A stretch of 37,973 nucleotides of DNA, from the NCBI GenBank assembly GCA_944367415.1, contig CALVWN010000058.1, positions 1 through 37,973 on the forward strand. The letters are read 5' to 3'. The notes under the pieces were generated by a model that was not told the origin of the DNA, did not search any database, and worked only from the letters and a program-made list of their open reading frames with translations. Each line of letters starts with the position of its first letter. Within the stretch, counting starts at the first letter, position 1. Both the position numbers and the translations under genes were made by a program. Source of the stretch: an uncultured Clostridia bacterium. GTDB lineage: Bacteria > Bacillota > Clostridia > Christensenellales > Borkfalkiaceae. This document shows positions 3,914-16,976 of the stretch, one piece after another.

Positions 3914-4000
3914 CCCCCTCTCCGAGGGAGCTGTCACGAAGTGACTGAGTGAGTCCGTCGCGGCAAGACGCGGGGCAGGAAGGCTCCCTCTTTGAGGGGG
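3914..4000. repeat. Imperfect palindromic element (MITE/REP-like)
   Basis: Arms CCCCCTCTCCGAGGGAG (3914-3930) and CTCCCTCTTTGAGGGGG (3984-4000) pair over 14 of 17 positions, with a symmetric 3x3 mismatch. Between them is a small hairpin TCAC-GAA-GTGA (3934-3944) and GC-rich filler. Elements of the type 'CTCCCTC...GAGGGAG around a TCACG.AGTGA core' are, as I recall, common between genes in gut Clostridia; this is from memory and not checked. No open frame is supported here. Confidence 0.55.
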
Positions 4001-4242: not shown

Positions 4243-4276
4243 AACAAAAAAAGAGCGGCGAACCGCTCTTTTTTTT
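4243..4276 (-). terminator. Terminator of the SipW surface-protein operon
   Basis: Stem AAGAGCGG (4251-4258), loop CGAA, CCGCTCTT (4263-4270). On the minus strand it is followed by a T-run, and on the plus strand also, so it can act both ways. It lies 18 nt after the stop of the 1412-residue gene. Confidence 0.9.
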
Positions 4277-4288
4277 GTTTGTTTCAGA

Positions 4289-7200
4289 TCATTTGGTTCC
4301 GATTGCGACAACATCTCCCGCTGCATTATACAGGAACACCGAAACGGTCGGCGTAATGACCAGATTGGACTTGTTTACCAGATATGCCGCATCCTGGTAG
4401 TTTTCAAATCCGTAGTAGGTAAACTCATCAGGCACGTAATAGACCGTGCTGCCGTCCGCTGTCTTAGCCTTTTGGATGCCCTCGGGAGTGGAATTGACCG
4501 TACCCTCGATCGGCGTCACCTCTGTTCTGGTGTCAACCACGTTGCAGCGCTTGAGCGTGATCTCCGTTACCGTTCCGCTTGCTTCGGATGTTCCGGAAAC
4601 CACAACCTCCTCCTGATCGAAGTAAGTCAGCGCCGTGCCGTACTGTGAGCTGACATCGTCCTCTTTGCAGACATACAGATAGCTGTGCAGATAGACGACC
4701 GCCTTCGTGATCTGTTCGCCCGTCGATGTATAGTCGGCCGTGATCTCTCCGTCGCTATCAACATTGACCGTCACAGAGACACCCGTCAGTTTCACCGTGC
4801 CATCCTCTTTGTTCATAAGGCGCGTCTCGTCGAAAACGTTATCATACGCCGCGCCGCCAAGGCCGACGTTGAGCCCTGCGTGCGCGATTCCTATGATCGT
4901 ACCGTAATTGACGCAGTTCTTGACCGTATAGATCGATGCATCATATACGTTCGAATTGCCGACGAGCATCGCCGCACCTTCTGCATGGATTTTGCCGTAG
5001 TTTGCGCAGTCTTCAAACACAACGCTGCTCTTATTGGCACTACCGCTGTTTTTCACATACCCGCCGATAAATGCCGCGCCATACCGTGCATAGATGTCCG
5101 AATAGTTCACGCAGTTTCTGAACGTGATCTGCGAGCCGTTTTGACCCTGCGATATAAATGCGCCGATATTCGTTGCAAGCAGATCTCTGTCGCCAATGTA
5201 CTCGCCCTTGGGCGTCCTGGTCGTGACATTGTCAAACTCAAGCACAGAACCGTATGCGGCGGGCCCCCAACCGGTAAAGCTTGCGATCGCCCCTTTCTGC
5301 ACGAAAGTCACATTTCGGAACACAGTCGTGCCGATCGCATCGGAAATGAGCGCACCGTCCATTGCAGTATAATCAACGGTATAGGTTTTTCCGTCTTCCG
5401 TTGCGCCGTTCAGCGTTCCGATGAAATAGACGAGCTGCTCAAAATCTGCGGAGAGCGTCACGTCATTTTTGAGCTGATAATAGAGATTTGCATACCATGC
5501 GCCAGCATCGGCAACAGATGCCGCAAGCGCGGAGACCTGACGAATCGCCTCAAACTGCACTTCCGAAGAGATCCCGAAGGGCTTCTCCGCCGTGCCGTCG
5601 CCGCCGTCAAAATAGACAGCCTGCATCTTGCATCCCTCAACTGCAGCCCGCGCCACAAGATACAGATCTTCGCGGTTGACGACGATCATTCCACCGTTCT
5701 TATAGGACGGATGTGCAAGGAAAATATCCGTATTCTCGCCGTAGGTCCCGCCGAGCACAAGCATCTGACCCTTGTCCATCGTGTCGTTAAGATAACCATT
5801 GCAGAGGTACGCCTTGGCGTTTTCCTCCGTCACGAACGTGCCGCCGTTGATCGTGATCACATTCCAATTGAGCACGCAATGCTGCGACATATTGGTGAAT
5901 GTGCCGTCGTTGATCGTAAGGACACCCCAGTCATCATTCTTGATGGTGTTGAGACCGCCCTCAAACGTGCCACCGTTGATGATCATGACGGCTTCCGTTT
6001 GCGTGGTGTTATCATTCCCATCATACCAACCGTTTTCGACAAGGCTGGAGAAAGACCCATTCTGACCGACATATACGCCTTCATTGATCGTCATCCGGCC
6101 AAAATTCTGAATATTATAGAAGGTATTTTCCCCTCCGACACTCGGACTTGAACCGGTCTCTTCTGAACGCAGATATTTTCCGCCATTGAGAACAACAACT
6201 CCGGAAACTTCATTGCAAATCGCCGCACGCCCATCGGTCTTATTATCGACGGTAATATTCCCGTCAATGGTAAGCGTCCCGAAATTATGGATCGTGTGAG
6301 CGGCGCTCGCACTTCTGCTCTGTACCGCTTCGCCGTCCCTGTCGCAAATAACACCTTCTCCGCAAATCGTCGCCTCTGCTCCGGCTTGGATCTCAAACGA
6401 AGCGAGATATGTAATGTTATTCTGCAGCGTCAGAGTATATTCTTGATTGGACTTTAATGTCACATTGTCCGGCGTATCATTTGAAGCAACCAATGTAATA
6501 TTCGTGTTACCGTCATTGATCGCTGCGCTCAGCGTTTCATAGGGAACGCCATCTACCATAGCCGCCTGTTGCCCCGGCTCGCTTCCATTCACAGAGGTAT
6601 AATAAGAGGCTTCGTCCGCATAGTCGCCAAGATCAATATCGACGGTTCTGTCGACCTCTCCCCAGTCATAAATATCCGCGATATGCCCCGAGACCGACGA
6701 TACGGAGATCCCTTCTTCCAAGATAAACTTAAGTCCGCTTTCTCCATAGCCGTCAAGCCCGGTGTGGAACTGGAACACTGCGCCATTCCCGCCGGTTTTG
6801 CCTTTCGGCGCTTCGGTAATTTTTTCATATGGAGAATACGTCGAACTCAATGCACCGCCCGTGATCGTAGCAGTACCTGCACGCATATCAAGCACCGTCT
6901 CTCCGGACAACTCACCGCCCGTGATCGCAAGCGCGGCATCGCTAGGCAAATAAATCACAACTCCCGCGTTGATCGATCCTCCGCTGATCTCAATGTCAAT
7001 CTTCTCATCATTCCCTCCCTGACCGGAAAAAGCAATCCCGCCAACATCAACTTCTCCGTCTTGGAAAATCACTTTCGAGTTACTGAAGATTGCAAAAAGA
7101 GAAACTATATCTTTATCATACTTCTCCGTCGACAATGCTGTAAATTTGCCGCCTTCGATCACCAACGTAGCGCCATCCGTGACCCCATCCGTCAGTGTTC

Positions 7201-8527
7201 CGAGCTGGAAAATGTTAGCCTGCTGTTTCGTACTCGCTCCGACAAATTCGCCGTCTTTGATCGTGATCTCGCTTCCGTTAACGGCATGAATTGCATTTCC
7301 GGTCGCACCAGCCGAACCGGTTTGATAATATCCGCCGTAAACCGTGACATCCGTACCGTCAACTTCAAATATCGTCTTTCCGTTAGAGTTCGTAATAGAA
7401 TTTCCTTCACCCAACGTCAGCTGTCCGCCCTCTGTCTTACATTGAAAAGAAAGTGCGGTGATCTCTGAATGATCCAGTACAACATTCGCGTTGACGGCAT
7501 CGATTGCGCCTGCAGTGAAAGTCACATCGTTCAGTTCTACCTCAGGCAATTGAGAAGTGTCCGCGTTCTCGATCTTGAGACCATTCCCAAAGGAAACATT
7601 TTCCAACGATGCCGATCCGAGAAGCTCGACTTTGTGAGAAAAATTTATCCCCCGAGCCGTTACATTGGCAGGCAAGACAATTTTCCAATCCATCCAAAAT
7701 TCATCGGGATCCTCGTCTCTTCCGACAACTTTTGTTCCCGTTCCGACAATCGTAAGCTGCTTATCCCCGAGTGACACGATCTCGTCCCGCGAAGGCCACT
7801 GATAGGATGCCGACGCTGCAAGCGGATCAAGGAAGAGAACATCCCCGTCCTCGGCAGCCTCCATGGCATCAAGAAGGGTCGAATAGGTATCCCCCCCCAT
7901 AGAAATCATGCCGTTTGCATTGGACTGAACCGCACTCACGATAAGCGTCATGTTGGAGGGCGCCGGATCTGTTTCCCCCGCTCCCCAAGGCAGCCCGATG
8001 CTGAAAGAAAGCTCGATCGGCTCTTTCGAAACGCCAACCGTACTCCAGCCCTTCGTGCCGCCTTCGGATGTCAGAATATAGGAGTTGTTTTCCATCGCCG
8101 CGCCGTCGATGGTATATGGCGTCGCACGATCCGCCACAAGATACGCAACATATTTCATCCCGACGGTGCTTTGATTGGTAACGGTCAGCGTAAAATTCGC
8201 CGAAACGCCTTGCCCGAGCAGGATTTCAACCGACGCGGCGGCATTCCCCTGCCCCGACACCACCGTTGCATTTCCCAAACCATTTTCAAGCACGATGGAA
8301 TTGTCGCCATTATCATCGTTCTGCGTACCGTTTACCTTACCGTTTTCATCCACATAGGACATGGACGTAAGATCCAACGAAGTTGAAATACTGATTTCGC
8401 CGCTCTGCACCTGAAAATCATATTCATCGGAGCTTGAAAATGCAGCGATCGACGCACCTGCAATGATCGCCGTACAGCAGCCGATGGTCACAGCGGACAG
8501 AGCGATCGCCTTCGTCTTACTTTTCAT
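4289..8527 (-). CDS. Giant SipW-type secreted beta-helix protein (1412 aa)
   Basis: Predicted cell-surface or extracellular protein, last gene of the SipW operon. A SipW-type signal peptide covers residues 1-28 (GASIA-AF, cut after Ala28 by analogy with TasA). Residues 30-205 resemble the TasA/CalY beta-sandwich. From about 215 (TYSTLLDAMEAAEDGD) to about 960 come many short G-G-T/G-N-x-T turns such as INGGTF and ITGGEL, typical of a right-handed parallel beta-helix. Residues 1134-1222 hold three repeats built on CVNYG/CANYG. The C-terminus has no LPXTG, membrane helix or binding module. Paralogous to the next gene upstream. Starts at 8527 behind AAGGAGA. Adhesin or fibre component is inference; no enzyme residues seen. 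Confidence 0.85.
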   Translation of the reverse strand: MKSKTKAIALSAVTIGCCTAIIAGASIAAFSSSDEYDFQVQSGEISISTSLDLTSMSYVDENGKVNGTQNDDNGDNSIVLENGLGNATVVSGQGNAAASVEILLGQGVSANFTLTVTNQSTVGMKYVAYLVADRATPYTIDGAAMENNSYILTSEGGTKGWSTVGVSKEPIELSFSIGLPWGAGETDPAPSNMTLIVSAVQSNANGMISMGGDTYSTLLDAMEAAEDGDVLFLDPLAASASYQWPSRDEIVSLGDKQLTIVGTGTKVVGRDEDPDEFWMDWKIVLPANVTARGINFSHKVELLGSASLENVSFGNGLKIENADTSQLPEVELNDVTFTAGAIDAVNANVVLDHSEITALSFQCKTEGGQLTLGEGNSITNSNGKTIFEVDGTDVTVYGGYYQTGSAGATGNAIHAVNGSEITIKDGEFVGASTKQQANIFQLGTLTDGVTDGATLVIEGGKFTALSTEKYDKDIVSLFAIFSNSKVIFQDGEVDVGGIAFSGQGGNDEKIDIEISGGSINAGVVIYLPSDAALAITGGELSGETVLDMRAGTATITGGALSSTYSPYEKITEAPKGKTGGNGAVFQFHTGLDGYGESGLKFILEEGISVSSVSGHIADIYDWGEVDRTVDIDLGDYADEASYYTSVNGSEPGQQAAMVDGVPYETLSAAINDGNTNITLVASNDTPDNVTLKSNQEYTLTLQNNITYLASFEIQAGAEATICGEGVICDRDGEAVQSRSASAAHTIHNFGTLTIDGNITVDNKTDGRAAICNEVSGVVVLNGGKYLRSEETGSSPSVGGENTFYNIQNFGRMTINEGVYVGQNGSFSSLVENGWYDGNDNTTQTEAVMIINGGTFEGGLNTIKNDDWGVLTINDGTFTNMSQHCVLNWNVITINGGTFVTEENAKAYLCNGYLNDTMDKGQMLVLGGTYGENTDIFLAHPSYKNGGMIVVNREDLYLVARAAVEGCKMQAVYFDGGDGTAEKPFGISSEVQFEAIRQVSALAASVADAGAWYANLYYQLKNDVTLSADFEQLVYFIGTLNGATEDGKTYTVDYTAMDGALISDAIGTTVFRNVTFVQKGAIASFTGWGPAAYGSVLEFDNVTTRTPKGEYIGDRDLLATNIGAFISQGQNGSQITFRNCVNYSDIYARYGAAFIGGYVKNSGSANKSSVVFEDCANYGKIHAEGAAMLVGNSNVYDASIYTVKNCVNYGTIIGIAHAGLNVGLGGAAYDNVFDETRLMNKEDGTVKLTGVSVTVNVDSDGEITADYTSTGEQITKAVVYLHSYLYVCKEDDVSSQYGTALTYFDQEEVVVSGTSEASGTVTEITLKRCNVVDTRTEVTPIEGTVNSTPEGIQKAKTADGSTVYYVPDEFTYYGFENYQDAAYLVNKSNLVITPTVSVFLYNAAGDVVAIGTK
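8442..8527 (-). repeat. Signal-peptide direct repeat, copy 1
   Basis: The first 86 nt match those of the gene starting at 11397 except for about six positions, all synonymous; the first 30 residues are identical. Confidence 0.8.
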
Positions 8528-8598
8528 ATTACTTCTCCTTCATAATTGTTTCGAATCGGAACGAGTGAAGGCGCTCATGCGCGCCCTTCCCCGATGAA

Positions 8599-8620
8599 CC
8601 CGCCCGCTTGCGCGGGCGGG
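8599..8620 (-). other. GC stem-loop between the two largest surface genes
   Basis: CCCGCCCGC, loop TTGC, GCGGGCGGG: a perfect 9-bp stem, 24 nt after the 917-residue gene's stop. The minus-strand sequence after it has only two T, so full termination is unlikely. A near copy sits in the preceding spacer. Confidence 0.6.
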
Positions 8621-8643
8621 GTTTTCCGGCTGACTGCCGCTGA

Positions 8644-11397
8644 TTATTCCTTAACGACTTTCCAGGCGCCCTCCTCGCCCGTGAGTTCATATCCCTCGGC
8701 GAGATAGTCTTCCATGACTTTCGAGGTGAACGTGCCGCCTGCGATTTCGATCGAAGCCTCTTCCACAATACTATTTTCCGAAGCAATTTCAAATGTCCCC
8801 TCGCAGCCTTCCTCTACTTTCAGAACAGCCTTTTTCTCTTTCAGCCAATTAGCGTCTGTTCCATCGGATCCATAGCCGATTTTCCCCTCGACCTTGCCCA
8901 TAAAGCCTGCATCAAACGTCACATTCACACCCTCTCCGTAGCCGTTGCTCGGCCAATAGTACAGATCGAACGCATACCAATTTGCGCTTGCAAGAATCTG
9001 TGTTTTGCCCGTCACAAGGAGATCGCCGCAGTTGTTGGAGATGACGTACTGCACATAGGAGACGTCTCTTGCGTCAAGCACCATGTTCTCCAGCGTCAGA
9101 TTGTTGTACTTCTGGAACATGATCTTGCAATTCGCCGTACCGGGCTTCACAGTGCCGTTCTTCATCACCACGGTGGAACCCTTGAGGAGCTGGAAGCCGT
9201 TGGTCTCCGTCCCCGTCGAACCGACAGTAGGATCGGTAACGATGTAGGTGACGCCGTTGAAGTCGATGACAAAATTCTGATTTGCCTGAACCTTCACACC
9301 GCTGCCATTGGCAGTCTCACTCGTCGCGATAAACTTGATCGTTACCTGCATGTTATCGGCAGGAACAGCCGCGACTGCGTCCACAAGGGAGGCATACGGC
9401 ACCCCTTCCAACAAAACAGCAGCCTGACGGACGACCGTGCCGTCAACGTACTCATAATACGCCACTTGGTCACGGATATCTTCATACCCGCCGAGGTTGA
9501 GGGAAACTTCCTGATCGTCAGTATTTTGATTCCAGTCATACACATGGATCGGAAGCCCGTGAAGCGCAGAGACGTTCACATCAGGGGAAATCGTAAAGTT
9601 GAAAACGCCTGCCGTGTTTGTCTCATTATCTACATAACGATTCAGATTGAGCATAATGGCAGAACCATCTGTAAATGCTCCTTTCCCTGTGGTCTCCAAT
9701 GTAGGAACAGAGCTATTTTCTGTCGCAGACAGAGTTCCGCCTGTAATCTTTGCCGTTCCCATACGCATATCGAGCACAACGCCGCCCGTCAACGTTCCAT
9801 CCGTGATGGTAAGATTTGCATTGCCGGGAAGATACACAACCGCACCCAACCCCATCGATTCGATAGAGCCGCCGTTGATATCAATATTTATGGTATTTGC
9901 ACTTTGGTTATTTCCGGAAATGCAATGTGCATATATCTCGGAATCACCGCCATTGTATACGAGGGACGATTCACCGAACAGGACAAACCCGTACATGGAC
10001 GCACGGAATGTACCGCCATCAACAACCAGGGAACCTCCCCCGAGGTCGTCGATCACATCCCCATGATCCCCGAGCTGAATCATGTTGCCACCTTGTGAAG
10101 TAAAGGTGCCATCCGAAATCGTGCCGCTTCCCTCATACAGATACAAAACCACATTGGCAGAAGCATAATTTCCGCTCAAAATTTTTATCTGTGCGTTATT
10201 CGCTCCATAAATCAAAGCGGTGCCGCCCGTCATCGTAAAGTCATTTCCGTCGAGGGTCATCGAACCACCCTCTACATTAATTGCCGCATCTCCGCTCGAA
10301 AGCGTCACATCCATCGTCGAGTTTTGAATGGTGACGTCCGCATTTGTGACGGTGACTCCGCCCTTGAAGGTCACGTCGTCAAAGACGGCTGCGCCTTCCT
10401 CAAACGAAAGGCTCATGAGAGAGAATCCGCTGATCTGCGAACCAATGGAAATGCTGCCGTTGAACGTCACGTTGGACGCGTTCACGCTGCCCGCAAATTT
10501 GACATCTCCATCCAGCGTCATATCGCTGATGACCGCATTTTCAGGGACATAGAACGCATCCTCTCCTTCCGCAGGTACAAGCGTCGTCTGATCCTGCCCT
10601 GCGCCGCGGATGGTAAGCTGCTTCTCTCCGAGCGCTTCGATCTCCTCTTGCGAAGGCCACTCGAGCGGATCCTGCGTTTCGGCAAGATCGATCACCGCGC
10701 CATCCTCGGCGTTCTGCATTGCATCCGCAAGCGTCGTAAAGAAGTTGCCGTTCGAATCCATAATGGAAACGGCCGCATTCGACTGCACCGCACGAACAAT
10801 GAGCGTAAAGCTCCCGGATGCACTCAGTTCGGGATCCCAACCAAGACCGATGCTGAACGAGATCTCCTGCTGCCCCGTTGCGGTCATCGTGACCCAGTCA
10901 GAATCGGCATCCCCCGTGAGCGAGGTGTTGGAACCGCTCTGCGCATTGCCGTCGATGAGGAATGCCTCCGCACCCGTTTCTGCGACAAGATAGGCAATAT
11001 ATTTCATGCCGACGCTGCTTTCATTTTTAACGGACAGCTTGAAGTTTGCCGACACGCCCTGTGCGAGCATCATCTGCACCGACGCAACGGCGTCTGCTTC
11101 CTCGGTTGCAGTAACGGCGGCATTGCCGAGCGCATTGTCGAGCGTAATGGCATTCGCCGTCGCGTTGCTATCTCCCGTCTCGTTATCAAGTATCGTCGCC
11201 GACTGCGAGCCAACCTCATTGACATACGTCATGCTTTCCAGCGCAAGGTCGGTCGTAATTTTAATTTCACCGCTTTGCACAAGGAAATCGTATTGCTCGG
11301 AGCTTGTGAATGCTGCGATCGACGCGCCTGCGATGATCGCCGTGCAGCAGCCGATGGTCACAGCAGACAGAGCGATCGCTTTCGTCTTACTTTTCAT
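8644..11397 (-). CDS. SipW-type secreted beta-helix protein (917 aa)
   Basis: Paralogue of the 1412-residue protein. Residues 1-30 are identical in both, including the SipW-type signal (predicted cut after Ala28). Residues 30-210 are TasA/CalY-like (SVGMKYIAYLVAE, FTLIVRAVQSNA). A second module starts at about 218 (FFTTLADAMQNAEDG), followed by GEKQLTIRGAG and a beta-helix of short Gly-rich turns (VEGGSMTL, ITGGTL, VDGGTF). A further block near 700 (LEGVPYASLVDAV) repeats the same lead-in. The C-terminus ends LAEGYELTGEEGAWKVV, a style of ending seen in secreted clostridial repeat proteins. No anchor motif. ATG at 11397 with GGAGA upstream. Function as adhesin or matrix protein is inference. 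Confidence 0.85.
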   Translation of the reverse strand: MKSKTKAIALSAVTIGCCTAIIAGASIAAFTSSEQYDFLVQSGEIKITTDLALESMTYVNEVGSQSATILDNETGDSNATANAITLDNALGNAAVTATEEADAVASVQMMLAQGVSANFKLSVKNESSVGMKYIAYLVAETGAEAFLIDGNAQSGSNTSLTGDADSDWVTMTATGQQEISFSIGLGWDPELSASGSFTLIVRAVQSNAAVSIMDSNGNFFTTLADAMQNAEDGAVIDLAETQDPLEWPSQEEIEALGEKQLTIRGAGQDQTTLVPAEGEDAFYVPENAVISDMTLDGDVKFAGSVNASNVTFNGSISIGSQISGFSLMSLSFEEGAAVFDDVTFKGGVTVTNADVTIQNSTMDVTLSSGDAAINVEGGSMTLDGNDFTMTGGTALIYGANNAQIKILSGNYASANVVLYLYEGSGTISDGTFTSQGGNMIQLGDHGDVIDDLGGGSLVVDGGTFRASMYGFVLFGESSLVYNGGDSEIYAHCISGNNQSANTINIDINGGSIESMGLGAVVYLPGNANLTITDGTLTGGVVLDMRMGTAKITGGTLSATENSSVPTLETTGKGAFTDGSAIMLNLNRYVDNETNTAGVFNFTISPDVNVSALHGLPIHVYDWNQNTDDQEVSLNLGGYEDIRDQVAYYEYVDGTVVRQAAVLLEGVPYASLVDAVAAVPADNMQVTIKFIATSETANGSGVKVQANQNFVIDFNGVTYIVTDPTVGSTGTETNGFQLLKGSTVVMKNGTVKPGTANCKIMFQKYNNLTLENMVLDARDVSYVQYVISNNCGDLLVTGKTQILASANWYAFDLYYWPSNGYGEGVNVTFDAGFMGKVEGKIGYGSDGTDANWLKEKKAVLKVEEGCEGTFEIASENSIVEEASIEIAGGTFTSKVMEDYLAEGYELTGEEGAWKVVKE
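11312..11397 (-). repeat. Signal-peptide direct repeat, copy 2
   Basis: Partner of 8442-8527. The protein is identical over 30 residues although third positions have diverged. Confidence 0.8.
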
Positions 11398-11475
11398 ACA
11401 TGGTCTCCTTTGCTTATTTTCTTTTTTGATTTTGACGGGCGGAAGCGTTCATGCGCGCCCCCTGCCCGATCTTCC

Positions 11476-11495
11476 CCGCCCGCTCACGCGGGCGG
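11476..11495 (-). other. GC stem-loop before the 917-residue gene
   Basis: CCGCCCGC, loop TCAC, GCGGGCGG: an 8-bp perfect stem 25 nt after the stop of the gene ending at 11521. The spacer also shares a CATGCGCGCCC block with the next spacer (8577-8587 and 11452-11462). Confidence 0.6.
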
Positions 11496-11520
11496 AAAAG
11501 TTTACGTCAATGTGTCTTGG

Positions 11521-13302
11521 TTACTGTAAGGGAAACTCGTCTTCTTTTACATACGTTTCATCGGTCGTATTGTTTTCAAACACGATCGTGACCGTGGCAT
11601 CGGGATGACCTGCTTCCCAGTCGCCGTAGCCGTATTTCGTATCGACATATATACAATTTTTGATGGTAATGGAGACGTTTGCACCTGCTTCTGCCCCTCC
11701 GCAGTAGATCGCAGCACGCAGATCTTCAAAGGTACAGTTATCGAACGTGACCTCGGTGTCACCCACCGCAGACGGGCCGATGATGACCGCATAGCCGCCG
11801 TTATCGCCACCGCTTCCGATAAAGTGCACATTCTTTATGACGAGCTTTGCATTTTCGCCGATGCCATCAAGATTGTTGCCGTTTGTCCCTGCATTGTTGA
11901 AGAAGTGATAGTCGGATTTGATCGTAGCATTGTTGCCATCAATGGTGATCGTGCCTGCGTCCTCGGGCAATGCGATCTCGCCGGCACCATTCTCCGTGAG
12001 GTCGATCTCGGTTCCCGCTGCGAGCGTGATGGTGACGTCCGCGCCGGATGCGACCTTGTTAAGCGCATCCACCAATCCCGCCTCGGAAGCGACCGTCTTG
12101 TTGACGGCAAACTCATCCTCGACATTCCAGCCCGTATTCCCCGTGAAGGTCACGTTTGCCTTGAACGTGTCGGGATCCGTGAGAGATGACGTCGTATCGA
12201 TGGAATAGCCGTAAGACGTGTTCGTATAGGTGCAATTTCTGATGGTGAGATTGACCGTCGCGTTGTTCACCGCCGTGCAATAGACCGCACCCCACATATC
12301 GGTGAACGAGCAATCCTCGAGGACGACCTGCGCATATCCGATCTCGCTCGGGCCGAGGACGACCGCAAAACCGGTTCCCGTGCCGGGGCCGACAAAGTTG
12401 ACATTGCGGATGACGATGCTTGCATCCTTGCCGACGCCGTCAAGATTATCGCCGTCCACTCCCGCATTGTTGAAGACCTTGTTCGCAAACGTGATGGTCT
12501 CCCCGTTGCCGTTGAGATCGACGGAGACGCCGTCGGGAACGGAGAGCTGCCCGCTCGTTAGGTTCATACTCTCCGTGAGCGTGATCTGCACTTCCTCGCC
12601 CGCCTCCGCGGCGTTGATCGCATTCTGCAGATCGGCGGCATTGCCGACGGAAGCCGTGACGTCCGCCGTCTGCGCATTTGCCTGCACCGCCTCGAGGACG
12701 ATATTCAGCGTGATTGACTGCGGTTCGGTGACGCCCTCGAAGGCGTTCAGCGCGCTCCAGGGAAGGGAGATCTCGAACGCGAGCGAAGTGACGGCTGCAG
12801 CCTCTTCGACCTTCGTCCAGGGCTGCAGATAGACGGAGCGCTCGCCGAGGGCCAGATCGGTATCGCCGACCTTGACGATGAGGTTGTCGCGCAGCGTCTC
12901 GCCGCCCGCCGTCTCCGCATAGGCGTACACGGAATACTGCATCTTGACCGTGCTATGATTGGTGATGTCGAGCGTGAATGCCGCGCCGTCGCCGAGCGAC
13001 ATATTCCGGAACGTAATAGATGCGCCGTCAATCGTGACGATACCGCCCTGGTCGACCTCGACGGACGTGGCGGCATCGGCGATCGTCGCCTCAACACGGG
13101 CGCCGCCCTGTTCCTGCGACCATGCTTTGTCGAGAGACAACTCGCCCTGCACGTCGATCTTACCGGTGTTGACGCCGATCTCGTACTCGCTCTTCGCCGT
13201 AAACAGCGCGAAGGTCGCGCCCAGAATGACGGTGAGGCTGAGAAGCGCGACGAGAACGGACAACAGGATCGCCCTGCTCTTTGTCTTTTTTCCTTGCATC
13301 AT
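11521..13302 (-). CDS. SipW-type secreted protein with two beta-helix repeats (593 aa)
   Basis: Third large surface protein of the operon. The signal peptide ends GATFA-LF (cut after Ala32), the same pattern as TasA/CalY. Residues 33-215 are a TasA-like beta-sandwich (SLGDGAAFTLDITNHSTVKMQYSV). Then come two tandem repeats of about 180 residues, 221-400 and 405-593, each with FNNAG, NLDG(V/I)G, the pair GFAVVLGPS / GYAVIIGPS, and RNCTYTNTSYGYS / KNCIYVDTKYGYG. This looks like an internal duplication. The start at 13302 (MMQGKK) is chosen for AAGGAG 7 nt upstream; earlier in-frame codons extend into the previous gene. No anchor. Exact role unknown. Confidence 0.85.
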   Translation of the reverse strand: MMQGKKTKSRAILLSVLVALLSLTVILGATFALFTAKSEYEIGVNTGKIDVQGELSLDKAWSQEQGGARVEATIADAATSVEVDQGGIVTIDGASITFRNMSLGDGAAFTLDITNHSTVKMQYSVYAYAETAGGETLRDNLIVKVGDTDLALGERSVYLQPWTKVEEAAAVTSLAFEISLPWSALNAFEGVTEPQSITLNIVLEAVQANAQTADVTASVGNAADLQNAINAAEAGEEVQITLTESMNLTSGQLSVPDGVSVDLNGNGETITFANKVFNNAGVDGDNLDGVGKDASIVIRNVNFVGPGTGTGFAVVLGPSEIGYAQVVLEDCSFTDMWGAVYCTAVNNATVNLTIRNCTYTNTSYGYSIDTTSSLTDPDTFKANVTFTGNTGWNVEDEFAVNKTVASEAGLVDALNKVASGADVTITLAAGTEIDLTENGAGEIALPEDAGTITIDGNNATIKSDYHFFNNAGTNGNNLDGIGENAKLVIKNVHFIGSGGDNGGYAVIIGPSAVGDTEVTFDNCTFEDLRAAIYCGGAEAGANVSITIKNCIYVDTKYGYGDWEAGHPDATVTIVFENNTTDETYVKEDEFPLQ

Positions 13303-13328
13303 GGTTTCACTCCTTGTTTTATTCTCTC

Positions 13329-13346
13329 CATCCCGCGTACGGGATG
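13329..13346 (-). other. Stem-loop before the 593-residue gene
   Basis: CATCCCG, loop CGTA, CGGGATG. It starts 7 nt after the stop of the 199-residue gene. Like the two spacer hairpins downstream it lacks a T-run on the transcribed strand. Confidence 0.55.
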
Positions 13347-13352
13347 TGCGCA

Positions 13353-13952
13353 TTAAAGGCCGAACACCGTGTTGAGGTCTTCGTCCGAAGCATTCGCCTG
13401 TCCTGCATAGATGGTGAACGTGATGGTCGCATCGCCGCTGAGAGGCTGCGTGGCGCTCTTGTCAAGTTCGACGCTGATATTGAGCGTGACCGTCTCGTTC
13501 GACGCGAGCGGATCGTCGCTCGCACTCCATGCACCGATCGACCCGCCGGTCACGCCGACGTTGAGCACGTCCTCGGCTGCCGCGTTGTCGATGGTATAAG
13601 TGACGCAGTAGCGCAGCGGCGTGGCGCCGGTATTCTCCATGGTGAGCGCGAACTCCGCTCTGTCGCCGGGAACGATGTTTTTCAGCGTGACGGCGCCATT
13701 GGCGATCGTCGCCGTGCCGCCCGCGTTGAAGGTATTGCTGTTTGTCGGCTGCGCGACTTCACTGTTGTTGAGACTGTACAGCGTCAGCGAATCCGCGTCG
13801 AACTCTGCCGAAAGGTTGACGCTGCCCGTCGTGACGGTCACTTCGCGCGACTTGTTCACGCCGAACAGGGCGAACGTCGAGCCGACGATGACCGCCGCGC
13901 ACAGCATGATCGTAAGCCCCGCCGTGATAAGTGCTGTTCTCTTGGTTTTCAT
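13353..13952 (-). CDS. TasA/CalY-like SipW-dependent protein (199 aa)
   Basis: Small secreted protein of the TasA/camelysin type. The signal peptide ends GSTFA-LF (cut after Ala28). The mature part shows the expected order: TTGSVNLSAEF, then IVPGDRAEFALTMENTGATPLRY, then alternating short strands. At about 170 mature residues it is near the size of CalY. TasA and CalY form fibres in Bacillus; fibre formation here is inference. It starts 12 nt after the stop of the 220-residue gene, with AAGGAG in the spacer. It could be the major subunit that displays the large beta-helix proteins. Confidence 0.85.
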   Translation of the reverse strand: MKTKRTALITAGLTIMLCAAVIVGSTFALFGVNKSREVTVTTGSVNLSAEFDADSLTLYSLNNSEVAQPTNSNTFNAGGTATIANGAVTLKNIVPGDRAEFALTMENTGATPLRYCVTYTIDNAAAEDVLNVGVTGGSIGAWSASDDPLASNETVTLNISVELDKSATQPLSGDATITFTIYAGQANASDEDLNTVFGL

Positions 13953-13964
13953 ATTCCGATCTCC

Positions 13965-14627
13965 TTATGATACCTTCTGCCGCGCCATGACGGTGATGTT
14001 GAAGGAAAGCGCGCCGCTCATGATGGTCTCGCCCGTGCCGTCGTCGAGCACGCCCTCTTCGAGGGGAAGTTCCACTTTGAGCTTGAACGTCTGCGTCTCG
14101 TTGGCGGCGGTGATGCTGCCGACGGAGACGGCGCCCTGTTCGACGATCTGCGCGAGCGTCGTGTTTGCCTCGGTGAGGACGTTGCCCTCGCCGTCGGTGA
14201 CGGTGACGAGCAGCTTGTCCGCAAGGCGCGCCGCGGCGGAATTCTCGGCGGGCGTCTCGGCAAAGAAGAACGCAACGGAGTAGTCGAACGCGACGGAGCC
14301 GCGGTTTTCGATCTCCAGCGTCGCCTCCTGCCAGGTGCCGGGGATGCTCTGTTCCCCGAACGTGAACACGTTGTCGTCGGGATCGTCCGTCTGCGCATCG
14401 GTCAGATCGACGCGCTCCATGTTGCTCGACACGGTGAGAACGCCGTTCTCATCGGCGGTGCGGCCGTTGAGCTGCACGCGCGCAAGCCCGATCTCCAGCG
14501 TCCCCGCCTGCAGATAGTTGACGACGGTGACCGAATCGGAAAAGAGCGCGACGGATGCCGTGATGAGGATGATCGCGCTCATGAGCGCGAGTACCGCAGA
14601 CAGAATGATCGCTTTGGATTTTTTCAT
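13965..14627 (-). CDS. TasA/CalY-like SipW-dependent protein (220 aa)
   Basis: Secreted protein with a SipW-type signal (TASVA-LFSDS, cut after Ala27) followed by VNYLQAGTLEIGL, the classic TasA start. Later come SIPGTWQEATLEIENRGSVAFDYSVAFFF and LADKLLVTVTD, matching the conserved PGD/N.G..DFY and LAD.L.V blocks of the family. It has no Cys. ATG at 14627 behind AAGGAGG. Paired with the 199-residue protein as candidate fibre subunits. Family membership is firm, polymerisation is inference. Confidence 0.87.
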   Translation of the reverse strand: MKKSKAIILSAVLALMSAIILITASVALFSDSVTVVNYLQAGTLEIGLARVQLNGRTADENGVLTVSSNMERVDLTDAQTDDPDDNVFTFGEQSIPGTWQEATLEIENRGSVAFDYSVAFFFAETPAENSAAARLADKLLVTVTDGEGNVLTEANTTLAQIVEQGAVSVGSITAANETQTFKLKVELPLEEGVLDDGTGETIMSGALSFNITVMARQKVS

Positions 14628-14646
14628 GCCGCTGCCTCCTTACCGC

Positions 14647-15486
14647 TTATTCCTGCGCGGAAGGGGCTTCTTCCTCGGCGGGCTGTGTCTGCCCCTCTCC
14701 GGCGGCGGCAGCCTCTTCCTCCGCCTTCTTCTCCGCCTCGCGCTTGAGTCTGCGCGCTTCGCGGCGGGCGGCGCGCTTTTCCTCCTCGCGGCGGGCGCGC
14801 TCCTCGGCGAAATCGTTATATGTAATGTCGATGATGTTCTTGATATGCTCGATGGTCTCGGGCGCTTCCACGCGCACGTCGATGGGCTTTTCCTTGATGT
14901 TCAGCCCCTCTTTGTCGGTGTACGCGATGAAGTCGTTGTTCTGCACGGTGAGGCGCGCGATGATCTTGCCGCGGCGCAGCAGGATCCTCACGAGCAGCTT
15001 CTTGCCGTAGTACACGCTCGCGCTCTTGTCGTTGATGACCTTTTTGGAGTTCTCCTTCGACTCGGCGTATTCGATGATCTCGTCCACGCAGCTCCTCTCG
15101 ATGGGAGAGAGCGCCTCGTACGCCTCGGGATAGGGAACGCTCTCGTTGCGGCGCAGCATGACCATCCCCTCCGTGTCGACGGGTTCGGCAGGCTCCTCCT
15201 CGGGTGCGGCGGGCGCTTCTTCCGCAGGCGCAGGCTCGGGAGCGGGCTGCTCCTGCGGCGCTTCCTGCGGCTGCTCGGCGGGCGCTTCCTCGCGGGGAGC
15301 GATCTGCGCGGGCACGGGCTTTTCGCCGACACGGACGAGTACATAGGCGTTGTCATCCACGATGACGATCCTGCCCGCGTCGTCCTCTCGTTTGCTCTTG
15401 ACCAGCGTGACGATGAGCCACACCGCGAGCGCCAGAGCGACGACGCAGATGATGACGATGCACGCGATGAACAAACCTTCTGTCAT
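14647..15486 (-). CDS. Unknown membrane protein of the SipW operon, cytoplasm-facing domain
   Basis: 279 residues. One membrane helix at 4-28 followed by KSKRED, so the rest should be in the cytoplasm. A Pro/Glu/Ala-rich linker spans about 60-105. Then comes a compact domain, about 108-225, with YYGKKLLVRILLRRGKIIARL at its centre (159-179) and ending IEHIKNIIDITYNDF. A very basic-acidic helix (226-262) and an acidic tail close it. I cannot name the domain; it resembles short domains of unknown function in other clostridial proteins. The ATG overlaps the signal peptidase stop as ATGA, so the two are translationally coupled and may form a complex. Confidence 0.8.
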   Translation of the reverse strand: MTEGLFIACIVIICVVALALAVWLIVTLVKSKREDDAGRIVIVDDNAYVLVRVGEKPVPAQIAPREEAPAEQPQEAPQEQPAPEPAPAEEAPAAPEEEPAEPVDTEGMVMLRRNESVPYPEAYEALSPIERSCVDEIIEYAESKENSKKVINDKSASVYYGKKLLVRILLRRGKIIARLTVQNNDFIAYTDKEGLNIKEKPIDVRVEAPETIEHIKNIIDITYNDFAEERARREEEKRAARREARRLKREAEKKAEEEAAAAGEGQTQPAEEEAPSAQE

Positions 15487-16307
15487 TTCTCTTCACCTCT
15501 CTTTAATTCTTCCAGCTCCGCGCGAAGTCGCAGGATCTCCTGCTCACGGGCTGCCGTTTCCTCTTGTTGCTTCCTGCGCTTGTCCGAACGGACGATGCGC
15601 ACGATATTGATGACCTCGAAAATGAGGATGACCGACGCGGGAAGGATGAGACACACCACGATGCCCGTCGTCGAACACAGAAAGTTCAGACAGGCACCCA
15701 GCGGGTAGTTGCTCCATGTGACGACGCCGATGACGTCCTCCTGTTCGACGAGCCGGGTGTCGGGCGAATCGTTGGCGTCTCCCTGCGTGCGGTATTTCAC
15801 GCCGTCCGCACTCTCGACGACCTCGACGATGCGGTGGGTGTTGACGATGGGATCGTTTTCCGCGCCCGTTCTGCTCCAGTCGTTGAAGGTGATGATGTCG
15901 CCCGCTTCCAGTCGGGAAAAGAAGTCGGCGCGCGCCTCTCCCTCCTCCGGAACGACGCGGATGCCGATGACGGAGTGGGTGCGGATGGAGTCCTCCCGCT
16001 CGCCCTCCATCGAACCGGTGAGCACGATGCGGTACTGCATTCCGCCCAGCGTGAGCGTCTCTCCCTGCGCGCGGTAGGCGAGCGCCACCGCAAGCACGGC
16101 GATCGCCGCCGCCAGGATGACGCACACGATCACGGTGGATATGACGTTCCACACCCTGTGCGCGCCCTTCGGCTTCTCCGCCGCCTGCTCCGAGGGCGCT
16201 TCGGGCGGGGCAGAAACTTCCGCCGTTTCGGACGGGGCGGGGGCTGCGGGCGCCTGCTCTTCGGGCGCTTCGGGCGGCTGCTTGTCGGGAAATTCCTCGG
16301 GCGTCAT
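15483..16307 (-). CDS. sipW: SipW-type signal peptidase with long cytoplasmic tails
   Basis: ER-type (S26B) signal peptidase, 274 residues, presumed to cleave the TasA-like and beta-helix proteins encoded downstream. The catalytic Ser is S99 in LTGSMEG. His158 in NTHRIVEV replaces the Lys of ordinary SipS-type enzymes, which is the mark of SipW. GDIITF (136-141) and TQGDANDSPD (174-183) supply the remaining boxes. Membrane helices lie at about 52-78 and 212-238. Unusual parts are the Pro/Glu-rich N-terminal tail (1-48) and a charged, coiled-coil-like C-terminal tail (240-272), both cytoplasmic; typical SipW lacks such tails. Start at 16307 overlaps the previous stop as ATGA, with GGAGGG upstream. 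Confidence 0.93.
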   Translation of the reverse strand: MTPEEFPDKQPPEAPEEQAPAAPAPSETAEVSAPPEAPSEQAAEKPKGAHRVWNVISTVIVCVILAAAIAVLAVALAYRAQGETLTLGGMQYRIVLTGSMEGEREDSIRTHSVIGIRVVPEEGEARADFFSRLEAGDIITFNDWSRTGAENDPIVNTHRIVEVVESADGVKYRTQGDANDSPDTRLVEQEDVIGVVTWSNYPLGACLNFLCSTTGIVVCLILPASVILIFEVINIVRIVRSDKRRKQQEETAAREQEILRLRAELEELKRGEEK

Positions 16308-16768
16308 GCGGCGCTGCCCTCCAGCGTATATTGGGCGAGGACGGAGCAAGCGGCGCCCTGCGCCTCATTGCCCACTTCCTCCCCGAGCGTATAGGTGATC
16401 AGAAATCCGAAACTGCCGCTCACTTCGGCGCGGAACTCCTTGCCGGAGACGGCGGAGAGCGTGTCGTCGCACAGGACGGTGTCGCCGACCTGGATGCGCA
16501 CCTGCAGGTGCTCGGCGAGCGCGCCGCCGTCCGACGTCAGCGTGACGACGAAGGTCGCGGAGGAATCGGCCTCCCCGCGGTAGACGCAGGTGCGCCTGTC
16601 CCCCGGAGCAAGCCCGTCGATGGCGATCTGTTCGCTGAACTCGTCGCCGACGCCCTCCAGCACAAGCCCGTCATCATTCCGGCTCAACAGATATGCAAGA
16701 CCCACCCCCGTGCAGATGAGCACGGCGGCGAGGGCGACGAGCAATATGATCAATGATGACTTTTTCAT
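16304..16768 (-). CDS. Small CalY-like membrane or secreted protein, first gene of SipW operon
   Basis: 154 residues. N-terminal hydrophobic segment 5-28 ending GVGLA-YLL, which resembles the SipW cleavage pattern A-x-x, so it may itself be a substrate. The rest has IDGLAPGDRRTCVYRGEAD and LAEHLQVRIQVGDTVLCDDTL, which follow the PGD and LA..L.V.I..G..L order of the TasA/CalY fold. Three Cys (56, 110, 141 approximately) could form a disulfide. ATG at 16768 with GGGAG 8 nt upstream. Its stop overlaps the peptidase start. It may be an initiator or tip subunit; this is a guess. Confidence 0.78.
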   Translation of the reverse strand: MKKSSLIILLVALAAVLICTGVGLAYLLSRNDDGLVLEGVGDEFSEQIAIDGLAPGDRRTCVYRGEADSSATFVVTLTSDGGALAEHLQVRIQVGDTVLCDDTLSAVSGKEFRAEVSGSFGFLITYTLGEEVGNEAQGAACSVLAQYTLEGSAA

Positions 16769-16856: not shown

Positions 16857-16887
16857 ATTATAACACAGGTGCCCCCCTGTTTGTCAA
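16857..16887 (-). promoter_or_regulatory. Promoter of the SipW operon with dyad in a 19-bp spacer
   Basis: Minus strand TTGACA (16887-16882), 19-nt spacer, TATAAT (16862-16857). Centred in the spacer is ACAGG-N6-CCTGT (16865-16880). A long spacer with a central dyad is the hallmark of MerR-controlled promoters. It is the only good promoter found upstream of the eight-gene operon. Confidence 0.65.
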
Positions 16888-16976
16888 GGGGGGCAGGAAA
16901 AATAATCACGCTTTTTTTCGACGAAATTCACACAAATCGGGCGCAAAATCGTACATACGTCACGGACAAAGCGTGA

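Follow-up and report, generated by a model that had tools for sequence, protein, structure and literature searches.

The window, meaning the whole stretch of DNA analysed (37,973 nucleotides), is a complete contig (CALVWN010000058.1, our G000:C58) of a draft genome of 1.73 Mb that is 74% complete. Gene calls and a reading of the open frames place a single operon of eight closely packed genes on the minus strand at 4289–16768, in agreement with the initial annotation of this DNA. Read 5' to 3' along that strand, the genes encode proteins of 154, 274 (SipW), 279, 220, 199, 593, 917 and 1412 residues. They and the sites that flank them are:

16857..16887, minus strand: promoter-like site read in the sequence (TTGACA, 19-base spacer, TATAAT), kept in three species
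16304..16768, minus strand: leading gene (154 aa), membrane helix and a TasA-like domain that has no donor segment; a proposed anchor of acceptor-only type
15483..16307, minus strand: SipW, ER-type (Ser/His) signal peptidase (274 aa), from family models and residue conservation
14647..15486, minus strand: single-pass membrane protein (279 aa); its conserved domain matches no known family and is predicted to lie on the cytoplasmic side
13965..14627, minus strand: small TasA-like predicted SipW substrate, class A (220 aa, P0005); TIGR04088 above cut-off
13353..13952, minus strand: small TasA-like predicted SipW substrate, class B (199 aa, P0004)
11521..13302, minus strand: large protein (593 aa, P0003), SipW-type signal, TasA-like domain, C-terminal DUF4957
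8644..11397, minus strand: large protein (917 aa, P0002) with SipW-type signal and TasA-like domain; C-terminal part probably beta-helical
4289..8527, minus strand: large protein (1412 aa, P0001) with SipW-type signal and TasA-like domain; C-terminal part probably beta-helical
4246..4275, no strand assigned: two-way terminator-like hairpin (13 pairs, flanking A and T runs) downstream of the last gene

The promoter-like site, whose two hexamers are perfect and whose spacer contains a run of G, overlaps with an inverted repeat made of runs of G and C (16870–16895); a consensus scan lists that repeat but, taking spacers of 16–18 bases only, leaves the site itself out. A spacer of 19 bases is typical of activator-dependent (MerR-type) promoters. 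For the hairpin at the other end, the background is 17 terminator-like sites found over the region as a whole and 13.9 expected. The start of the 593-residue gene is placed at 13302, which has a ribosome site in front of it; the start in the list of open reading frames, 13353, is probably too early. Neither an Rfam nor a tRNA search gave a match in the window. The large genes have a GC content of 50–53%, against 60–67% across most of the window. A 25-base dispersed repeat (3924–3948) adjoins the 3' end of the operon and is present in 11 exact copies genome-wide, with no copy of a reversed control pattern. Going by the look of their sequences, the flanking genes are presumably those for a dGTPase, a NUDIX protein and a ZIP protein, and purine genes. 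The same locus is found in CALVZS010000004.1 (uncultured Clostridia bacterium) and in Candidatus Gallimonas faecavium (CAJFMF010000005.1).

Conservation was surveyed over 55 loci from 50 genomes, picked for SipW or TasA-domain matches. Genes were called with a home-made codon scorer, which missed every relevant gene at 8 of 40 loci; profiles applied to open frames recovered all eight. A core order, in which the leading gene is followed by SipW, then by the membrane gene if there is one, and then by a small TasA-like gene, is present at 32 loci in 31 of the 50 chosen genomes, a fraction that is no prevalence, because the loci were picked for having matches. These genomes lie in at least four families of the order (f1, f6, f19 and f32), and the gene order, whose retention in relatives had been set as a test, is thus kept. 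The core is followed by a protein of at least 260 residues in 27 of the 50 genomes, and the full set, including the membrane gene, is found in 23. As scored, the core order is absent from 19; SipW is the last gene in five loci and has no operon partner at all in five others. Distribution of the TasA-domain profile is patchy: at family level 44 of 151 genomes have a match, at order level 50 of 297 and, at E<=1e-10 and with the own genome included, at class level 9 of 391. In a genome of the same genus (G015) there is no SipW match at all and the genes that flank the operon are 112–121 bases apart, with synteny on both sides; this clean empty site means that the operon is present or absent there as one piece.

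SipW and the TasA-like N-terminal domains

The peptidase scores above the model cut-off with TIGR02228 and below it with NF046067 (E 3e-29). Its Ser and His, of the ER type, do not vary among the 11 aligned SipWs, bearing out its description as a His-type SipW peptidase.

Other arrangements of SipW genes were also seen. The same genome has a second cluster (L042:1-6923, on G000:C31) with two SipW-like peptidases, 31 and 37% identical to that of the window, and proteins of 226, 400, 472 and at least 686 residues, three of them with an Arg-Tyr motif after the helix; similar SipW pairs are present in L050, L051, L054 and L055. A 423-residue fusion protein (L149:9473-10744) consists of SipW (residues 6–195) and a TasA-like domain (217–420), and its gene adjoins two copies of the membrane-protein domain. 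The cluster at L151:4442-19999 has three genes for SipW, and one of its open frames, of at least 3130 residues, has a TasA-like N-terminal signature (2e-10) and runs off the end of the examined stretch.

The first ~200 residues of the three large proteins and of both small ones form one family (alignment A1, 27 domains, five from the window), from which the TasA-domain profile was derived. Searched against the PDB, this profile gave nine matches up to E 10, headed by TasA (8aur, 2.9e-5), the archaeal bundling protein AbpX (9sj2, 4.6e-5), TasA again (5of1, 5.8e-5) and AbpX again (9rhp, 2.2e-4); lower matches were to HYDIN (6.9e-4 and weaker) and beta-agarase (0.33). At E<=0.01, the NCBIfam models TIGR04088 (SipW-type signal), TasA and BsaA match 15, 7 and 1 of the 27 rows, and Pfam camelysin matches 15. 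Judged by these matches, the N-terminal domains belong to the TasA/camelysin (SipW-dependent) family, and the alignment with TasA that had been set beforehand as a test was obtained; likeness to CalY in particular comes solely from the Pfam camelysin matches. Membership of the BsaA family was rejected: besides the single row in 27, no window protein matches the BsaA model (TIGR04090) at E<=1.

Taken singly, the 220-residue protein passes the TIGR04088 cut-off, the 593-residue protein matches below it, and the 917-, 1412- and 199-residue proteins give nothing. Because these single-protein matches are weak or none, the SipW signal of the proteins that fail the cut-off is assigned from motif and homology. 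The motif, Ala-x-aromatic after a hydrophobic stretch, is present in all five window proteins and in 113 of 121 SipW-type proteins taken from loci with SipW.

The TasA fibre report (PMC9674648) gives residues 28–38 as the strand donated to the next subunit, with contacts made by F29, I32 and F39. Since F39 is position 12 of the chain in 8aur, the first residue of that chain is 28, which puts 14 residues ahead of the Gly matched in the alignment by the conserved Gly of the domains described here. The distance from the predicted cut to this Gly column is likewise 14 residues in 94 of the 121 SipW-type proteins and 15 in 14; the rest are 8 without the motif, 3 without the Gly column and 2 with other distances. 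These counts include two L057 rows with masked letters, a 59-residue piece in class B and a 591-residue protein among the large ones.

Hydrophobicity by position was tabulated for the spacer-14 proteins only (35 of class A, 16 of class B, 44 large), with the +1 column aromatic by construction. In the large proteins, positions +7, +9, +11, +16 and +18 are hydrophobic in 68, 97, 100, 100 and 100%, and the intervening positions from +2 to +17 in 0–11%. Class B follows the large proteins at +9 (93%) and +11 (100%), with 12% at +7. Class A has 60% at +5, 65% at +7, 11% at +9 (Asn in 27 of 35) and 100% at +11. The position equivalent to the TasA I32 contact (+4) is hydrophobic in 0% of all three classes. 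On this sequence pattern, all three classes appear to carry a donor-like strand, of at least two types, and most SipW substrates, the large ones included, keep the TasA donor-strand spacing with alternating hydrophobic residues. Common descent alone could be enough to keep the spacing.

The same pattern bears on the role of the large proteins. They might be secreted alone, having SipW and an old domain in common with fibre subunits and joining nothing, and SipW-type signals are indeed carried by proteins of quite another sort, among them those of this genome's second cluster. However, the large proteins keep more than the signal, namely the TasA-like domain in full, including its donor segment and strand pattern, and they share an operon with small proteins in 27 of the 50 chosen genomes; we regard secretion without joining as quite improbable. 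The initial annotation had taken the N-terminal domains to be the polymerising unit of each large protein. Spacing and strand pattern support a part in a TasA-type assembly, but the large proteins may instead be docked on a stalk or a short stack, because the donor pattern of class A differs and the leading protein resembles an acceptor fixed to the membrane.

A stack of this kind might be all there is, with the leading protein as base, a class A protein as adaptor and a large protein as tip, held by single donor-strand joints and forming no long polymer. The contrast between class A and the large proteins at +9 (11% against 97% hydrophobic) looks as if the strands fitted different grooves; class A is found in 40 of the 50 genomes and class B, the large-like type, in only 15, and many cores hold just one small gene. 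Relatives whose behaviour is known nevertheless polymerise, namely TasA and BsaA (PMC9674648, PMC7395162). One small gene can also suffice for a fibre, as in B. subtilis. AbpX would presumably be a further polymerising relative, a point that we take from its name alone. A short stack with no polymer is in our view unlikely, although it deserves serious consideration.

The leading protein and the membrane protein

The profile of the leading protein pairs with the TasA-domain profile at a probability of 98.7 (E 4.7e-16 for one comparison), against 4.5 to 54.8 for the other five pairings of the four profiles. The highest of these five, SipW with TasA, is probably inflated by a single fusion protein among the SipW sequences. 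The alignment of the leading protein with TasA begins after ~90 columns of the TasA profile, that is, past the signal, the donor segment and the first strand. Its six-row profile gave nothing credible in the PDB, where FliL (E 1.5) was matched by the membrane helix only.

The leading protein has one membrane helix, and net charge predicts an N-in/C-out orientation in 26 of 27 cases; by K/R count the orientation is less clear (17 N-in, 2 N-out and 8 equal, n=27). AxA, at which an ordinary signal peptidase might cut, is present near the end of the helix in 5 of 27. AxF is found in 7 of 36 leading proteins and in 24 of 88 controls, which is chance level, so the SipW motif is not enriched. The linker between the helix and the first strand is short. 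With a TasA-like domain that lacks the donor and sits on an apparently uncleaved helix, the leading protein is a candidate for an anchor that only accepts a strand. The initial annotation had counted three small TasA/CalY-like proteins; all three are TasA-like, but only two are of the SipW substrate type, the 154-residue protein having no donor segment. Identity of the leading gene with tapA was considered and rejected, given the chance-level motif, the short linker and the missing donor strand.

The 279-residue membrane protein matches no known family among those scanned, in keeping with its earlier description as a protein of unknown domain. Searching its profile against the PDB gave 41 matches, none credible (best E 0.02), mostly to sodium channels and other membrane proteins, with some to PomB. 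Its predicted topology is opposite to that of the leading protein in all 27 homologues; the conserved domain should therefore face the cytoplasm. An operon proposed to serve an assembly on the outside would thus include a domain on the cytoplasmic side.

C-terminal parts of the large proteins

Proteins of at least 260 residues were classed as large. There are 59 of them in the surveyed loci, with a median of 719 residues; 2 are shorter than 350 and 37 have at least 600. The C-terminal parts of 58 were scanned for families at E<=0.001, that of L151 being left out for its length. Pectate_lyase_5 (putative adhesive) was matched by 7, Beta_helix and Peptidase_M26_N by 3 each, and DUF4957, Pect-lyase_RHGA_epim and BspA-type LRR_5 by 2 each. 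Because the matches of all 15 families add up to 28, at least 30 of the 58 C-terminal parts have no family match. Within the window, P0003 alone has a match above cut-off, to DUF4957. Such varied families behind one kind of N-terminal domain suggest a docking module with exchangeable cargo.

A rung-like motif, picked after reading P0001, is found 11 times in that protein (1.0 in shuffles) and 5 times in P0002 (0.7 in shuffles), and is absent from P0003. The 53 other large proteins contain 132 instances, against 23.7 in shuffles, and 19 of these proteins are enriched singly; the other genes of the window are not enriched (2 against 2.7). Autocorrelation of glycine, hydrophobic and beta-former residues at lags of 12–44 revealed no clear coil period: among the many lags tried, the best z values were 3.3 for P0001 (lag 16), 2.6 for P0002 (lag 34) and 2.7 for P0003 (lag 27), with 2.3 in one control. 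PDB sequence searches with the three C-terminal parts returned nothing credible. A beta-helix is the likely fold of the large C-terminal parts. The three giant beta-helix proteins of the initial annotation thus stand as three large proteins with a SipW-type signal and a TasA-like domain, their beta-helix fold being supported but not proven.

Lyase-like beta-helices raise the question of whether the large proteins are surface glycan enzymes, with the remainder serving as carrier. Among pectate-lyase-like families, PF12708 is matched by 2 of the 58 C-terminal parts and NosD by 1; a rhamnogalacturonidase model is also matched by 1. The commonest match is, however, the putative adhesive Pectate_lyase_5 (7 of 58), beside the two BspA-type LRR proteins, and the window's own large proteins have no enzyme-family match above cut-off. 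An enzymatic role appears very improbable to us.

Related systems and the proposed assembly

Related systems among the literature matches are from Bacillus, C. perfringens and archaea. Like tapA-sipW-tasA of B. subtilis, the operon combines an accessory gene, SipW and a TasA-like subunit (PMC9674648, PMC10151520). The substrates resemble B. subtilis TasA in the TasA-like domain, the 14 residues from the mature N-terminus to the Gly and the aromatic second residue. TapA, in the same place in the B. subtilis operon, donates a strand and cannot receive one (PMC10151520), whereas the accessory protein here is predicted to keep its membrane helix and has no donor strand. Further differences of the present operon are a second small subunit, an extra membrane protein and the three large proteins, which share the N-terminal domain of the small ones. 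The sipW-tasA-capP-calY locus of B. cereus is likewise sortase-independent, with two TasA-like subunits and SipW, but the available portion of PMC13082335 mentions no large TasA-domain proteins. The clostridial sipW-bsaABCRSD operon of C. perfringens encodes a small secreted protein whose polymers depend on SipW and form without sortase; unlike the operon described here, it carries a two-component system (PMC7395162), and its BsaA differs from the present domains, 1 of 27 of which matches the BsaA model at E<=0.01. AbpX, the second and fourth best PDB match, is the archaeal likeness.

Sortase and chaperone-usher pili have a stalk of small subunits that bears large adhesins, and in the chaperone-usher case the subunits are joined by donor strands. 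A working likeness to such pili is possible, although no sortase or LPXTG was found here: the own genome (74% complete) has 0 matches to PF04203, and 0 of the 59 large proteins of the surveyed loci have an LPXTG-like end. The earlier statement that these elements are absent is upheld, and a sortase-assembled pilus was rejected on the same two counts. Among the titles and opening lines of abstracts listed from the open-access literature, with subscription papers and preprints mostly outside its range, none describes a TasA domain fused to large beta-helix or LRR parts, and none a membrane-anchored TasA-like base without a donor. Nor did a search of the same literature find a paper that pairs two of the terms SipW-dependent, pectate lyase-like and BspA.

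We propose that the operon encodes a membrane-anchored, sortase-independent donor-strand assembly of the TasA/SipW kind, displaying large adhesin-like proteins, and would give this reading an even chance of being right. SipW would cut the two small and three large proteins one residue before the Phe, freeing an N-terminal donor strand with the TasA spacing, and the TasA-like domains of the subunits would then be linked by donor-strand exchange. The leading protein, as an acceptor-only base, would offer a groove at the membrane and tie the assembly to it; the small subunits would stack as a stalk. The large proteins, docked by their own TasA-like domain, would expose their long, probably beta-helical, adhesive parts. 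The sequences show the gene content, the homology of the domains, the conserved order, the spacing and strand pattern, the predicted topology and the presence or absence of the operon as a unit at one site; processing by the operon's own SipW, the donor-strand joints, the polarity, the anchoring and the adhesion are what we infer from them.

The proposal draws on TasA and AbpX as the best PDB matches, on the spacing and strand pattern, and on the profile match and topology of the leading protein; further grounds are the core order, the fusion of SipW with a TasA-like domain in L149, the adhesin-type C-terminal families and the empty site. Counting against it are the +4 contact, which is not kept, the 8 of 121 proteins without the SipW motif and the 2 with other spacings, the less clear topology of the leading protein by K/R count and the AxA in 5 of 27, the patchy distribution and the 19 of 50 genomes without the core order. 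In its most specific form, a donor-strand organelle with a donor-less membrane base, a stalk with two strand types and plugged-in giant modules (beta-helix or BspA-type LRR), the proposal is tentative and somewhat less likely to be right than wrong.

If true, the assembly would be the equivalent of a chaperone-usher pilus and its adhesins, made with one dedicated signal peptidase, and very large adhesive proteins could be displayed with no need of a sortase. It bears on how TasA-type fibres attach to the cell and on whether they carry other cargo. To these questions the operons, from gut bacteria known mostly from metagenomes, may offer a specific answer: a membrane base that acts only as acceptor, and large proteins that use the same domain for docking.
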